Origin: Aurantimonas coralicida DSM 14790
GTDB lineage: Bacteria > Pseudomonadota > Alphaproteobacteria > Rhizobiales > Rhizobiaceae
Assembly (NCBI RefSeq): GCF_000421645.1
Contig: NZ_ATXK01000008.1
Span: 1-64,000, forward strand
Length of the DNA: 64,000 nt
Direction of reading: 5' to 3'
Positions 2,823 through 63,825 of this stretch are shown piece after piece. The notes under the pieces are model-generated. The model searched no databases and was not told where the DNA came from. It saw only the letters and a program-made list of their open reading frames with translations. Positions within the stretch are counted from its first letter, which is position 1. Each line of letters begins with the position of its first letter. Made by a program: the position numbers and the translations under genes.

Positions 2823-4055
2823 TTGCCAGTGACCGCGCCGCTGCCCAATCCGTTGCTGACCGCCGTCTCGGTGCCGCCGATCGCGCGCGCCGGCCGCTGG
2901 ATCGCCGCCTATGACGGAAGGCACGGCCCGCTGATCGACTGCAGCCAGGCCGTTCCGAACCATGCCCCACCGGCCGGCTTCGCCACCAGCCTGGCCGAAG
3001 CCGCGGCCTCGGCGGCCGGTGCCCGCTACGGCGACATTCTCGGCGACCGCGCCTTGCACGAGGCCTATGCCGACCATGTCGCCGCGCGCTACGGCATGCC
3101 CGTCGCGGCCGGCCGCGTCGCCATCACCAGCGGCTGCAACCAGGCCTTCTTCGCCGCCATGCTGACCGTCGCGCGCGCCGGCGACGTGGTCGTGCTGCCG
3201 GCCCCCTGGTACTTCAATCACAAGATGACGCTGGAAATGCTCGGCATCGAGGCGCGCCCGTTGCAGACCGAGGCGGCCGATGGCTTCCTGCCCTCCGTCG
3301 CCGGGCTGGAGGCGGTGCTCGATTCGCGCTGCCGGGCGCTGGTGCTGGTCAGCCCGAACAACCCGACCGGCGCCGTCTATCCGCCGGAACGCCTCGCCGA
3401 ACTGATGGAAGTCTGCGTTTCGCGTGGGATGTATCTCGTCCTCGACGAGACCTATCGCGACTTCCTCGACCCGGCGCTCGGCAAGCCGCATGGGCTGTTC
3501 GCGGAAACCGACGCGCGCGAAAACCTGATCGCGCTCTACTCATTCTCCAAATCCTACGCCATTCCCGGCCACAGGGTGGGCGCCATGATCGCCGGCGAGG
3601 CGACCATCGCCGAGTTGGAAAAGGTCATTGACTGCATCCAGATCTGCGCGCCCCGCCCGGCTCAGGCGGCACTGCCCTGGGCCATTGATGAACTGGCCGA
3701 CTGGCGCGACGCAAACCGCGACGAGATCGCACGACGGGCAGACATCTTCCGCGCCGCCTTTGCCAGCCTGCCGGGCTGGGAGCTCGACCAGATCGGCGCC
3801 TATTTCGCCTATGTGCGCCATCCCATCCCGGACCGGCCGGCCGAGGCGGTCGCCGAGGCGCTGACTCGCGAACTCGGGGTGCTGGTCCTGCCCGGCAGCT
3901 TCTTCGGCCCCGGCCAGGACCAGCATCTGCGGATCGCCTTCGCCAATGTGGATGCGGACGGCATCCGCGAGATGGCGCGCCGGATCGGCCTCGGCCTGTC
4001 CGCCGGCGCCTTTGCCAACGAACCAGACCGTCCAGCGGGGAACCTTCATGGATAG
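2823..4055 (+). CDS. PLP-dependent class I/II aminotransferase
   Basis: A fold-type I aminotransferase of 410 residues. Visible landmarks are the cofactor-binding SPNNPTG loop (177-183), Asp208 and Tyr211 in DETYRDF, and the Schiff-base Lys243 in the SFSKSYAIPGHRVG motif. It transfers an amino group from an amino acid to a 2-oxo acid in the cytoplasm; the substrate cannot be read from the sequence. It is the first gene of an operon and overlaps the following ureohydrolase gene by 8 bp, so an amino acid carrying a guanidino group, such as arginine or a relative, is a reasonable guess. The start is uncertain: TTG at 2823 or GTG at 2829, both without a clear ribosome site and just after a small hairpin (2789-2814). 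Confidence 0.85.
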   Translation: MPVTAPLPNPLLTAVSVPPIARAGRWIAAYDGRHGPLIDCSQAVPNHAPPAGFATSLAEAAASAAGARYGDILGDRALHEAYADHVAARYGMPVAAGRVAITSGCNQAFFAAMLTVARAGDVVVLPAPWYFNHKMTLEMLGIEARPLQTEAADGFLPSVAGLEAVLDSRCRALVLVSPNNPTGAVYPPERLAELMEVCVSRGMYLVLDETYRDFLDPALGKPHGLFAETDARENLIALYSFSKSYAIPGHRVGAMIAGEATIAELEKVIDCIQICAPRPAQAALPWAIDELADWRDANRDEIARRADIFRAAFASLPGWELDQIGAYFAYVRHPIPDRPAEAVAEALTRELGVLVLPGSFFGPGQDQHLRIAFANVDADGIREMARRIGLGLSAGAFANEPDRPAGNLHG

Positions 4056-59400: not shown

Positions 59401-59485
59401 TGGTGCGGGTGGAGGGACTTGAACCCCCATGCCTCTCGGCGCTTGGACCTAAACCAAGTGCGTCTGCCAATTCCGCCACACCCGC
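59401..59485 (-). tRNA. tRNA-Leu (UAG)
   Basis: An 85-nt type II tRNA on the minus strand with encoded CCA. The acceptor stem pairs GCGGGTG with CACCCGC, the discriminator is A, and a long variable arm is present. The anticodon arm CTTGG-TTTAGGT-CCAAG gives anticodon UAG, reading CUN leucine codons. It lies 76 bp upstream of tig. Confidence 0.96.
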
Positions 59486-59888
59486 ATAGTGCGCCGTACG
59501 GTGGGCGACGCGAGACGCGCGCTTCTATATCACCGGCCTCGCGGCCACGAAAGGCCCATATGGGGGCCAATCCGCATGATTCCATGGCTTTTTCACACGG
59601 GACCGGCCGTTTTGGCGTGATCCGGCGCCGAACCCCCGCGCATCCCTTCAGAGAACGGCGAGCGGCTCGACCAGGCTCCTGCCCGCACGAGGGTAAGAGT
59701 GAGTTGCCCCGGCGAGCGCGCCCACGACCCGTGCGTCGATGTCAATTGTTGCGATGCACAAATCGCAAGGCTGCCATGCATCGAAGGCTCTAGCGGGTCC
59801 GACATGCACCGCCTACCTTCCAGTCAACGAAGCGACGCAGACGAAACAATCAGCCGCTTCAATCGATTTAAGACCGCAGGATAGACCA
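59486..59888. other. 403-bp intergenic region upstream of the DUF1127 gene
   Basis: No gene is supported; a 70-codon minus-strand frame at 59593-59805 has no family match or ribosome site. The region holds the 7-6-7 inverted repeat at 59749-59768 and the likely promoter of the DUF1127/hairpin-RNA unit. Confidence 0.6.
59749..59768 (+). promoter_or_regulatory. Perfect 7-6-7 inverted repeat upstream of DUF1127 gene
   Basis: TTGCGAT-GCACAA-ATCGCAA is a perfect inverted repeat centred 130 bp before the DUF1127 ATG. A -10-like CCTACCT at 59812-59818 would start transcription near 59824, placing the repeat at -65, the normal recognition position of LysR activators. DUF1127 genes in Brucella and Agrobacterium are under the LysR protein VtlR, so a VtlR-type site is a reasonable guess. 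The -35 region is weak, as expected for an activated promoter. Confidence 0.5.
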
Positions 59889-60032
59889 ATGAACCTCGTT
59901 CGCTCCTACAACAACTGGCGCCGCTACCGCGAGACGGTCAACGAACTGAACCGTCTCTCCCAGCGCGAGCTGGCCGATCTCGGCATCTCGCGCGGCGACA
60001 TCAACTCGGTCGCCCGCCGCGCCATCGGCTGA
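59889..60032 (+). CDS. DUF1127 small protein, CcaF1-like
   Basis: A 47-residue basic protein: a DUF1127 domain at about 9-38 (WRRYRETVNELNRLSQRELA followed by DLGISRGDI) with a short N-terminal start MNLVRSYNN and a tail VARRAIG. Conserved are the Trp-Arg-Tyr start, the LSxRELxDLGIxRxDI core and the Arg pair at the end. In Rhodobacter sphaeroides the DUF1127 protein CcaF1, encoded just before the CcsR small RNAs, binds RNA and affects their maturation. ATG 59889 has AGGA 9 bases upstream. The hairpin array starts within about 20 bases of its stop codon, so the mRNA and the small RNAs are probably one transcript. Confidence 0.9.
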   Translation: MNLVRSYNNWRRYRETVNELNRLSQRELADLGISRGDINSVARRAIG

Positions 60033-60047
60033 TTATCAGCCAAGACT

Positions 60048-60164
60048 TTCGCAAGGGTCCACTCCTCCTCCCAGGACCCAGGCGGATCGGAAACTGCCAC
60101 TCCTCCTCCCAGGCAGTTTCCACCCAGACGCCCGCCGGGTCCTCCCCCCGGCGGGCGCCCAGAG
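60048..60164 (+). repeat. Hairpin unit A (three anti-SD stem-loops)
   Basis: Hairpin 1 (60055-60079): 6-bp stem GGGTCC/GGACCC, loop ACTCCTCCTCCCA. Hairpin 2 (60089-60121): 10-bp stem GGAAACTGCC/GGCAGTTTCC, the same loop. Hairpin 3 (60129-60157): 11-bp GC stem, CGCCCGCCGGG with CCCGGCGGGCG, loop TCCTCCC. GGCGGAT lies between hairpins 1 and 2, and CAGAGA follows hairpin 3. Confidence 0.88.
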
Positions 60165-60174
60165 ATTACAGAGC

Positions 60175-60292
60175 TTCGCCGAGGGCTACTCCTCCTCCCA
60201 AGCCCAAGGCGGATAAAGTGCCTGCGCATCCTCCTCCCAGCGCAGGTACCTCTCAGTCGCCCGTCGGGTCCTCCCCCCGACGGGCGATCAGA
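60175..60292 (+). repeat. Hairpin unit B (three anti-SD stem-loops)
   Basis: Hairpin 4 (60183-60205): 5-bp stem GGGCT/AGCCC, loop ACTCCTCCTCCCA. Hairpin 5 (60218-60249): 10-bp stem GTGCCTGCGC/GCGCAGGTAC, one G-U pair, loop ATCCTCCTCCCA. Hairpin 6 (60257-60287): 12-bp stem TCGCCCGTCGGG/CCCGACGGGCGA, loop TCCTCCC. Stem sequences differ from unit A while loops stay the same, so pairing is kept by matched changes. Confidence 0.88.
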
Positions 60293-60305
60293 GACCTTCT
60301 AGAGT

Positions 60306-60420
60306 TTCGCGTAGGGCCCACCTCCTCCCGGGCCTGAAGCGGATATGACCTGCGCATCCTCCTCCCAGCGCAGGTCCCAATGCGACACCCGTCGGGTCCT
60401 CCCCCCGGCGGGTGTTGTCG
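60306..60420 (+). repeat. Hairpin unit C (three anti-SD stem-loops)
   Basis: Hairpin 7 (60315-60334): 5-bp stem GGCCC/GGGCC, loop ACCTCCTCCC. Hairpin 8 (60347-60376): 9-bp stem GACCTGCGC/GCGCAGGTC, loop ATCCTCCTCCCA. Hairpin 9 (60384-60416): 12-13-bp stem starting ACACCCG, loop TCCTCCC, then TTGTCGTTT, a weak T-rich tail. Hairpin 9 is the likely transcript end. Confidence 0.86.
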
Positions 60421-60470
60421 TTTGGAGGCCGCAAACTTGCCCGATCATGCGCGCGGATCGCCACGCGGCC

Positions 60471-60505: not shown

Positions 60506-61927
60506 ATGTCGAAACAACCCATTCACGTCGTCGGCGGCGGGCTCGCCGGATCCGAAGCTGCCTGGCAGATCGCCGAACGCGGTCTGCCCGTGGTGCTGCA
60601 CGAGATGCGGCCCGTCCGCGGCACCGAAGCCCACAAGACCGACCAGCTGGCCGAGCTGGTCTGCTCCAACTCCTTCCGGTCGGACGACAGCCAGACCAAT
60701 GCGGTCGGTGTCCTCCATGCCGAGATGCGGCTGGCCAATTCGCTGATCATGCGCTGCGCCGACGCCCACCAGGTGCCCGCCGGCAGCGCGCTCGCCGTCG
60801 ATCGCGAGGGCTTTTCCGGCGCCGTCTCCGACGCGATCGCGGCCCACCCGCTGATCACCGTCGAGCGCGGCGAAGTCGAGGGCCTGCCGCCGGAGGAATG
60901 GGGTCCCAGCATCGTCGCCACCGGCCCGCTCACCGCGCCGTCGCTGGCCGAGTCGATCAGCGCCGCCACCGGCACCGACGCCCTCGCCTTCTTCGACGCC
61001 ATCGCGCCCATCGTGCATTTCGATTCCATCGACATGGACAAGGCCTGGTTCCAGTCGCGCTACGACAAGGTCGGCCCCGGCGGCACCGGCAAGGACTACA
61101 TCAACTGCCCGCTCGACAAGGACACCTACGAGCGCTTCGTCGCCGCCCTCGTCGAGGGTGACCGCGCCGAGTTCAAGGAATGGGAAGGCACGCCCTATTT
61201 CGACGGCTGCCTGCCGATCGAGATCATGGCCGAGCGCGGTCCGGAGACCCTACGTCACGGCCCGATGAAGCCGATGGGCCTGACCAACGCCCACCAGCCG
61301 GACATCAAGGCCTATGCCGTCGTGCAGCTGCGCCAGGACAATGCGCTCGGCACCCTCTACAACATCGTCGGCTTCCAGACGAAGCTGAAATACGGCGCCC
61401 AGGCGGCCGTGCTGCGGATGATTCCCGGGCTCGAAAACGCCGAGTTCGCACGGCTCGGCGGCCTGCACCGCAACACCTATCTGAACTCGCCGACCCTGCT
61501 CGACCCGACATTGCGGCTGAAGGTGCGCCCGCATATCCGCTTTGCCGGCCAGATCACCGGCTGCGAGGGTTATGTGGAATCGGCCGCCGTCGGGCTGATG
61601 ACCGGCCGTTTCGCCGCCGCCGAGCGCCTCGGCGAAGCCGCGACCCCGCCGCCGCAGACGACCGCCATGGGCGCGCTCGCCGCGCATATCACCGGCGGCC
61701 ACCTCGCCCATCAGGAAGAGAGCGGCAAGCGGTCCTTCCAGCCGATGAACATCAATTTCGGCCTGTTCCCGCCGCTGGAGCCGGGCGCCATCCAGAAGCC
61801 GGAGGGCGTCACGCGCTTTCGCGGCAAGGACAAGGCGATCGCCAAGAAGAAGGCCCTGTCCGCCCGCGCCCTCGCAGATTTCGCCGGCTGGCTCGGCCAG
61901 ACACCGATCGCGGAAGCTGCCGAGTAG
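60506..61927 (+). CDS. trmFO: Folate/FAD-dependent tRNA (uracil-54-C5)-methyltransferase
   Basis: A 473-residue flavoprotein. The FAD-binding motif [13 protein letters not shown] is at 8-20, and [13 protein letters not shown]-like sequence ([20 protein letters not shown]) and CSNSFRSDD follow, which are specific to TrmFO rather than MnmG. It makes ribothymidine-54 in tRNA using methylene-tetrahydrofolate. The methyl source is produced by GlyA. No ribosome site precedes the ATG; a -10-like TAAATT ends 6 bases before it. Confidence 0.96.
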
Positions 61928-61962: not shown

Positions 61963-63825
61963 TCAGCCGCCCGGCCGCTCCTGCCATTCGCCGGACCGGT
62001 AGTAGACCGTCAGCAGCGCCGACAGGATGGCCCCGTCGTCACCATCCCGCACGATCTGGCGCAGCGCCAGGCGGACACTGCGCCCGTTCGCGCCGGTGAG
62101 ATCGACGACCTGCATCGGCAATCGGTCCGGCGCCGTCGCGTAGACCGCCTCCGGCAGGGCGTCGATCGCCACCCCGAGATCGAAGCGGTCTTCCGCCCCG
62201 CCGATCCGCAGCACCAACTCGCCACCTGCAAGCGCCAGCACCGCTCCTTCGGATGACGGGGCGTTGGTGCTGCTCGTCTCGCCGTCTGCGGGCCCCTCAC
62301 GCAGGTCGCGCTCCGGGACGACGCGATCGAACCCGGCGATGTCGATCACCATCGGCGCATTGGCGGTGAAGCTGCGCAATTCGCGCACGCCGACGGGACC
62401 CGACAGATCGAGCGCCGCGAAAATGCGCTCGCGCCGGTCCGTTTCCTCCCCCTCCATCAAGTCCGACGGCAGCAGCGGCGCCAGGCGGTCGAGCTGGCTC
62501 ACATCGTCGAGAACGTAGAGGCGCGAGCGCAGTTCGGCGGACTCGCGATCCGGCCGCTCAGTCGCGACCAGCCGGCGCCCGCCGGCGCCGTCGTCCACCA
62601 CGAAGCGCTCGACGATGCGGGCGGCCTGACTGCGGCCAACCGTGTCATACGCGCCCCATGGCCCGAAGGCCGACACCGCCAGCAGCAACACCGGCACCGC
62701 TGCCATCCAGCGAATGTCGCCACGCGTGCGTCCCGGAAACTGCAGTGCGAGGACCAGCCACGCCGCCAGCGCCCCGAGGGCGAGGTAGTACCGCTCCAGC
62801 GTGAACCCCTGGGCGCCGATCCGCAGCCAAATCGCATAGGCGAGCAGCGACAGCGGCACCAGAAGCGCCAGGGCGAAATACCGTGTGAAAAGCCGCGTGG
62901 CCGCCGCGGCGCCGGCACGGAACGGATCGACCGCGATGCGCAGCATGAGGACGAACAGCGCGAAGAAGGTGACGATCCAGCCGATCTCGCCCTTCGGCAC
63001 GTCGCCGGTGACGAGGATCTTGGCGGCATAGAGATGCAGGACCAGCGCCGTCGCCAGCACCAGCGGCACGGCGACCCAGTCGAACAGAATGCGCAGGCCC
63101 GAGATCAGCCGTTCGTCCTGTCCCGCCGGCATGCGCTCGTCGAAATGATGCGGGATACGGCCCAGCGCGAAGAGCGGCCCGACCAGCGCGAAGGCCGTGG
63201 CGAAGATATGCTCGTAGGCGTCGCCCGGCAGCCCGACCTCGAACAGGTAGCGGATCATCTCCAGGATCGCCGACAGGCCGAGGACGAAGAGCAGCACCGA
63301 CAGAAAGGCGAGGCTGACGCCGACCACGGTCCAGAAGGTGAAGACCCAGAACCTTTCCGCATCGCGCAGGCCCAGATACCCCGCCAGCGGAACGGCGAAG
63401 GTCGCGGCAACGATCAGCGGTGGCGGAAACACCGCCAGCGCCGGCCCGGCCCAGATCGCCGCACCGACGACGAGCGCCACAAGGACAGACGCGCCCTGCC
63501 GCACCGCCACGGACGCGCCCCGCGCCTCCATCGCCAGCACCATGCCGACCGACATGGCCGCCGCGCCATAGAACGCCGCCAGCAGCCAGGCGAGATCGTC
63601 CTCGGCCACCGGATAGACATCCCGCAGGGCAAGGTTGGACAGGATAGCGATGGCGACGATCAGTAGGCTCGCCAGCGGAAAGCGGAAGGCCGCGACGCCC
63701 GCTCCCGCCGCCAGCGAGCGCCAGAACTGCCCGACATGCCGGGGCGCGGACCTCATCGTGCGCAATGCCATGGTGGGGTCGGCTTTCGGATCGGTTGGAA
63801 GTTCGTTGTGCTGGCCCGGATGCAC
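61963..63825 (-). CDS. DUF4153 multi-pass membrane protein
   Basis: A 620-residue inner-membrane protein of the DUF4153 family. About eleven to twelve hydrophobic helices fill residues 40-410, followed by a soluble C-terminal domain of about 210 residues rich in charged residues (SAELRSRLYVLDDVSQLDR, then LVLRIGGAEDRFDLGV). Function is unknown in the family. The start is GTG 63825 or ATG 63771, neither with a clear ribosome site. It converges with trmFO, 35 bp apart. Confidence 0.82.
   Translation of the reverse strand: MHPGQHNELPTDPKADPTMALRTMRSAPRHVGQFWRSLAAGAGVAAFRFPLASLLIVAIAILSNLALRDVYPVAEDDLAWLLAAFYGAAAMSVGMVLAMEARGASVAVRQGASVLVALVVGAAIWAGPALAVFPPPLIVAATFAVPLAGYLGLRDAERFWVFTFWTVVGVSLAFLSVLLFVLGLSAILEMIRYLFEVGLPGDAYEHIFATAFALVGPLFALGRIPHHFDERMPAGQDERLISGLRILFDWVAVPLVLATALVLHLYAAKILVTGDVPKGEIGWIVTFFALFVLMLRIAVDPFRAGAAAATRLFTRYFALALLVPLSLLAYAIWLRIGAQGFTLERYYLALGALAAWLVLALQFPGRTRGDIRWMAAVPVLLLAVSAFGPWGAYDTVGRSQAARIVERFVVDDGAGGRRLVATERPDRESAELRSRLYVLDDVSQLDRLAPLLPSDLMEGEETDRRERIFAALDLSGPVGVRELRSFTANAPMVIDIAGFDRVVPERDLREGPADGETSSTNAPSSEGAVLALAGGELVLRIGGAEDRFDLGVAIDALPEAVYATAPDRLPMQVVDLTGANGRSVRLALRQIVRDGDDGAILSALLTVYYRSGEWQERPGG

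Follow-up and report, generated by a model that had tools for sequence, protein, structure and literature searches.

What kind of RNA is encoded by the nine hairpins that follow a short DUF1127 gene in Aurantimonas coralicida, and what might so many anti-Shine-Dalgarno (aSD) loops in a row do? The locus was analysed within a stretch of 64,000 nucleotides, called the window below, and has the following features.

59401-59485, minus strand: tRNA-Leu, upstream of the array
59766-59780, plus strand: putative VtlR/LsrB-like operator CAAGGCTGCCATGCA, 123 nt upstream of the DUF1127 start codon
59788-59818, plus strand: possible promoter elements CTCTAG..., then CTACCT, picked out by eye only
59889-60032, plus strand: DUF1127 gene, 47 aa (Pfam PF06568, E=1.8e-16)
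60044-60163, plus strand: ar14 unit 1 (RF02344, 86.4 bits), hairpins 60055-60079, 60089-60121 and 60129-60157
60171-60292, plus strand: ar14 unit 2 (RF02344, 74.4 bits), hairpins 60183-60205, 60218-60249 and 60256-60288
60302-60420, plus strand: ar14 unit 3 (RF02344, 74.5 bits), hairpins 60314-60335, 60347-60376 and 60382-60418
60506-61927, plus strand: GIDA/TrmFO-type gene, the downstream flank outside the sRNA array (Pfam GIDA, E=5.8e-95)

A trigger-factor gene is also found upstream of the DUF1127 gene, and the first ar14 unit begins 14 nt past the DUF1127 stop. The gene of a DUF4153 protein (61966-63825, minus strand) adjoins trmFO. A longer DUF1127 protein is encoded on contig C1 of the same genome, near position 931378 (L183), by a 92-aa frame (Pfam E=4.8e-10) with the ribosome site AAGGAGA.

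The nine stems, situated between 60055 and 60418, are perfect over 5-15 bp, and each closes an aSD loop. The loop is TCCTCCC in three hairpins, ACCTCCTCCC in one, ATCCTCCTCCCA in two and ACTCCTCCTCCCA in three. TCCTCCC, the shorter type, is the loop of the third hairpin of every unit, and the other loops are 10-13 nt long and contain CCTCCTCCC. Dinucleotide shuffling of the region, repeated 500 times, yielded 0.37 such hairpins on average and never more than three, and none of 626 further stretches of the same length (398 nt), taken from both strands of the window, has more than two. The array strand folds 10.3 standard deviations below 100 shuffles. All three units were called independently as Rfam family ar14, above its gathering cut-off of 58.8 bits, and the Rfam calls within the window are limited to ar14 and tRNAs. 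A preliminary description of this DNA had recognised a DUF1127 gene followed by nine aSD hairpins in three tandem units; the Pfam match, the hairpin count relative to shuffles and the three Rfam calls bear this out, and the covariance-model and folding checks that it proposed gave the scores above.

The array belongs to the known RNA family ar14, that of Sinorhizobium NfeR1, which is kin to the CcsR or "cuckoo" RNAs. The ar14 pattern of three consecutive hairpins with a CCUCCUCCC-type loop is seen in all nine hairpins, and the stems are variable in sequence but paired, as in that family. The units of the window are 70-75% identical to each other. Elsewhere in the genome no extra copy was found at E<=0.001, either with Rfam ar14 (150 of 306 first-look candidates scored) or with a second model, R1 (92 of 3303 candidates scored); because only part of the candidates was scored, a divergent copy could have escaped.

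The ar14/NfeR1 RNAs (RF02344; SmelC397 of S. meliloti; the 2011 model RFMSmelA075) resemble the window units in their length of about 120 nt, their three hairpins, their CCUCCUCCC-type loops and their variable stems. The identical aSD loops of ar14 RNAs are described as acting redundantly, and NfeR1 silences ntrB and two mRNAs of solute-binding proteins in trans through three such motifs, which are redundant (PMC10746234). The preliminary description had supposed the array to be stress-induced; among its relatives, NfeR1 is induced by salt and nitrogen stress (PMC10746234), and stress induction has also been reported for SmelA075 (PMC3927594) and CcsR (PMC8625941). Six ar14 copies are known in S. 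meliloti (PMC7143759); a 2011 study described variants with two, three and four hairpins and pointed out the likeness to RS0680a of Rhodobacter sphaeroides (PMC3927594). NfeR1 is transcribed from a promoter of its own and is 123 nt long (PMC10746234); it does not depend on Hfq. The window, in contrast, has three tandem units behind a DUF1127 gene.

RS0680a of R. sphaeroides is presumably the same RNA as CcsR1. It has two stem-loops (PMC3927594), whereas the window units have three. The ccaF1-CcsR1-4 locus of that organism (CIN1) is laid out like the locus in the window, with a short DUF1127 gene and then several homologous sRNAs, which there form one operon (PMC10253847), and the co-transcript is processed by RNase E (PMC10253847, PMC8625941). 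Linkage of short DUF1127 genes to CcsR-like RNAs in alphaproteobacteria is known as the CIN1 locus, as cited in PMC10253847. The CIN1-type arrangement, in which several aSD-loop sRNAs immediately follow a DUF1127 gene on its strand, was found in all eight genomes searched of the window's genus, each with the gene ahead of nine hairpins. The parallel with CcsR/cuckoo RNAs beside DUF1127, which had been drawn from the letters alone, is an apt one in view of the published ccaF1 locus (PMC10253847), the formal family being ar14/NfeR1. The Rhodobacter locus has an RpoHI/RpoHII promoter (PMC10253847), whereas a VtlR/LsrB-like box is seen in the window. AbcR1 and AbcR2 share with the operon proposed below aSD-type motifs directed at transporter mRNAs and control by LsrB/VtlR (PMC10746234, PMC7486931), but they are another sRNA, and none of the window calls is theirs.

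The number of units varies among relatives. These were collected by a trmFO protein search, and the best 80 named loci were used; the loci are related by descent, so that the counts below are not independent. The nearest two of the 80, at 86% and 83% identity, belong to Aurantimonas, and records very near the window were possibly left out. Model R1, which was built on a 15-pair structure, gave 106 matches over 81 sources (the window and the 80 loci), 36 of the matched units, including all six of Aurantimonas sp. 22II-16-19i (L033), having served as building material. One minus-strand match in L033 was discarded, and the remaining 105, grouped at a start-to-start distance of at most 200 nt, form 80 groups: 66 single, seven double, five triple, one of four and one of six units. 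L065 and L082 are truncated at a contig end, and L061, whose two units lie 218 nt from each other, contributes two singles. Aurantimonas sp. VKM B-3413 (L034) has four units and L033 six, the latter being 88-99% identical. The L033 array, at 3091-3892 of that locus, thus comprises 18 hairpins in six near-identical units, all of which fall short of the Rfam ar14 cut-off and are matched by R1. Outside the window, arrays of three units are found in Mesorhizobium jarvisii, two Aminobacter and Pseudaminobacter arsenicus, and Mesorhizobium-type loci have two or three. The nine-hairpin layout and its copy number had been thought specific to this lineage, a view that fails because two to six units occur at other loci, in Aurantimonas, Mesorhizobium, Aminobacter and Pseudaminobacter.

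Model R1 found three tandem units in all eight searched genomes of the window's genus, where this number looks fixed, and it matched in 24 of the 40 genomes searched, the window's own included. Across the order, ar14 was present at E<=0.001 in at least 103 of 297 genomes and above the cut-off in at least 55, with up to 11 candidates scored per genome; in control genomes it was found in 0 of 14. In a tree of 34 units, the third units of the eight genus genomes group together (96/95, above the tool's mark of 95/80), as do the second units (85/83, below that mark), the first units are split into two groups, and the six L033 units cluster by genome. This grouping by position points to a triplication that predates the genus, and the clustering in L033 to a six-unit array that was either recently expanded or homogenised.

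The preliminary description had also noted that the stems differ by paired changes while the loops remain constant, and the same is true between genomes. RNAalifold on a MAFFT alignment gave only 15 pairs, the structure underlying R1, with none of them in the second hairpin, which MAFFT had misaligned, and counts anchored on the loops were used instead. With the loops as fixed anchors and no search for stems, the third hairpins of 10 arrays (eight from the genus, L033 and L034; 34 rows) show 12 distinct arm pairs with 98.3% of cells paired, compared with a mean of 76.9% when the 3' arms were dealt anew and about 50% when they were slid by one. Six of the ten pairs of the third hairpins have changes on both sides. 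For the first and second hairpins with an A(C)TCCTCCTCCCA loop, 18 distinct arm pairs are 77.8% paired, compared with 50.3% after shuffling. In both sets 0 of 1000 shuffles reached the observed value, a fraction that is not a probability because the sequences are related by descent. Double changes can be seen directly between hairpins in the same place, for example between hairpins 6 and 9, and compensatory changes, the outcome of the proposed check in related genomes, are present in all three units. A further arm-swap figure is biased, since the array's own arms had been picked for pairing, and was excluded as proof.

Several features of the locus bear on how the array would be transcribed. 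The unit starts are 127 and 131 nt apart and the gaps between neighbouring units measure 7-13 nt (Rfam or R1 bounds), which leaves no room for separate promoters. All 13 multi-unit arrays with an available 5' flank begin 4-17 nt past a DUF1127 stop, the fourteenth (L065) being cut by a contig end; among single units, such a stop is found no more than 100 nt ahead of the unit in 22 of 66. Of the 14 multi-unit arrays, 13 end in the unit with strictly the highest T count in the 18 nt around its 3' end, the exception being the window, in which the T count after unit 3 ties with that after unit 2 (5 and 5). A short T-rich tail, GTCGTTT, lies behind the last stem of unit 3 and possibly forms a terminator with it. 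Scans of the plus strand with a strict terminator pattern and with the sigma-70 consensus found none. Letters similar to 59788-59818 are seen by eye at the same place upstream in relatives. The anatomy of the locus suggests one DUF1127-sRNA transcript, and it fits, without proving, a single precursor like that of ccaF1-CcsR1-4, with its end at the last hairpin.

VtlR and LsrB are orthologues. The window box CAAGGCTGCCATGCA has 2 mismatches of 15 to the published VtlR motif CAATGCAGCCATGCA (PMC12595884) and is the sole site in the 64-kb window with two or fewer. Over the 81 sources, on either strand, sites with at most two mismatches lie within 250 nt of 15 of 122 DUF1127 starts, compared with 10 of 2000 random 250-nt stretches; allowing three mismatches, the numbers are 33 of 122 and 24 of 2000. 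Five of the eight genus members have an upstream site within three mismatches of the motif and three have none. In the Sinorhizobium/Ensifer trmFO loci L069, L088, L091, L094 and L097, a VtlR-like box TGCATGGGTGCGATG with three mismatches is found on the opposite strand, 122-125 nt ahead of the DUF1127 start. In S. meliloti LsrB activates NfeR1 and has a site upstream of it (PMC10746234), much as the putative box stands upstream in the window. VtlR activates atu1667 in Agrobacterium (PMC7486931), and three Brucella DUF1127 genes are under positive VtlR control (PMC12595884). In PMC7486931 atu1667 is labelled a putative sRNA; the Brucella orthologues given for it suggest that it is a DUF1127 gene. 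Like the DUF1127 gene of the window with its putative box, these are small-protein genes with a VtlR box upstream, but the portions of PMC12595884 and PMC7486931 drawn on here mention no sRNA array behind them.

Which messages could the loops reach? Six of the nine loops carry CTCCTCCC, to which GGGAGGAG is complementary. The pattern GGGAGGAG-N4-9-ATG occurs at 19 sites in the window's own genome and its reversed form at 4. Pfam scans of all 19 frames place seven of them among TRAP/solute-binding transport genes (three DctP, one DctQ, one DctM, one of the NMT1_3/TAXI type and one Peripla_BP_4), and several of the other frames are short or without a family. As a control served a different Shine-Dalgarno variant, AAGGAGA-N5-9-ATG, of whose 83 sites the first 30 were taken; 0 of 30 precede transport parts (28 scanned, one too short, one a repeat gene), giving a Fisher p of 0.0006 relative to 7/19. 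It replaced an earlier control motif, AAGGAGGT, which had no more than 11 sites, several of them ahead of very short frames. The excess is smaller in the sibling genome G300 (18 sites compared with 7 reversed), two of the 18 precede solute-binding proteins (12 frames scanned, the remaining six being of 11-62 aa), and the transport-gene excess is not significant relative to the own-genome controls (p=0.14); pooled, the two genomes give 9/37 (p=0.003). A GGGAGGAG ribosome site precedes a DctP gene in both genomes (own L143, G300 L165) and likewise an MliC-type gene (own L133, G300 L157), and these are candidate conserved targets. The predicted uptake-gene targets match the reported transporter bias of NfeR1.

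The reading that we favour, with a probability of roughly 80%, is that the locus is a DUF1127-ar14 operon, read as a single transcript that is probably activated by VtlR/LsrB and cut into trans-acting sRNAs, which block the ribosome sites of uptake genes. Transcription would start upstream of the DUF1127 gene, with a VtlR/LsrB-type LysR regulator as the probable activator, and would continue across the three ar14 units, ending where the last of them closes with its third hairpin, which would serve as the terminator. The 3' untranslated region would then be cut into sRNAs of about 120 nt, as is done by RNase E with CcaF1 in Rhodobacter. The three aSD loops of each sRNA would pair in trans with GGAGG-rich ribosome-binding sites and reduce translation, above all that of uptake-system genes; because the nine loops match ribosome-binding sites, nutrient-uptake genes are probably turned down.

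Antisense action on GGAGG sites had been proposed in the preliminary description and is the mechanism of a studied family member (PMC10746234), whereas its other proposal, a sponge for proteins or ribosomes, found no support here. A mostly uncut, multivalent decoy, whose nine loops hold ribosome-site-like sequences or a protein that binds them and whose copy number sets the dose, is rather unlikely. It would account for the range of two to six units among multi-unit arrays, for the nearly constant loops and for the 88-99% identity of the L033 units, as if dose were selected. The units of the window are much less alike, however, and the second and third are distinct across the genus, which dose would not need; moreover, the family members studied act by mRNA pairing (PMC10746234) and the CcsR precursor is processed (PMC10253847, PMC8625941).

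The position of multi-unit arrays 4-17 nt behind the DUF1127 stop could also mean that the hairpins are a structure of the 3' untranslated region that protects or limits the DUF1127 message and whose aSD loops affect its translation in cis, and the DUF1127 gene of L033 has a ribosome site, AAGGAGG, with which the loops could pair. The gene in the window has no such site (GGATAGACCAATG), two thirds of the single units have no DUF1127 stop in the 100 nt before them and NfeR1 of S. meliloti has its own promoter (PMC10746234), all of which makes this reading improbable. The least probable explanation, and a very doubtful one, is a repeat expanded by slippage or gene conversion that is functionless past its first unit. 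Unit number does differ between genera, but the constancy of three units in 8/8 searched genus genomes, the way in which units 2 and 3 group by position and the compensatory stem changes, which include those two units, speak against it.

The RNA family and its link to DUF1127 are already in print, as is the kinship of Rhodobacter CcsR-type RNAs with rhizobial aSD-loop RNAs (PMC3927594), and the tandem array departs from them modestly. The contribution of the locus is the tandem arrangement of complete ar14 units after a DUF1127 gene, with a VtlR/LsrB-like site in front; no such combination was found in full-text searches that did not name the arrangement and had most subscription journals outside their scope. 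A less likely extension of the DUF1127-ar14 operon proposed above is a dose-adjustable riboregulator, in which three-loop sRNA modules are gained and lost in tandem behind DUF1127 (two to six modules, 6-18 loops). In the window's genus these modules would have diverged into distinct paralogues on a single VtlR/LsrB-controlled transcript, which would co-ordinate TRAP-type uptake systems, with the DUF1127 protein steering their release. The loci beside trmFO form a natural copy-number series of 1, 2, 3, 4 and 6 units, so that one can ask what purpose many redundant aSD loops serve.
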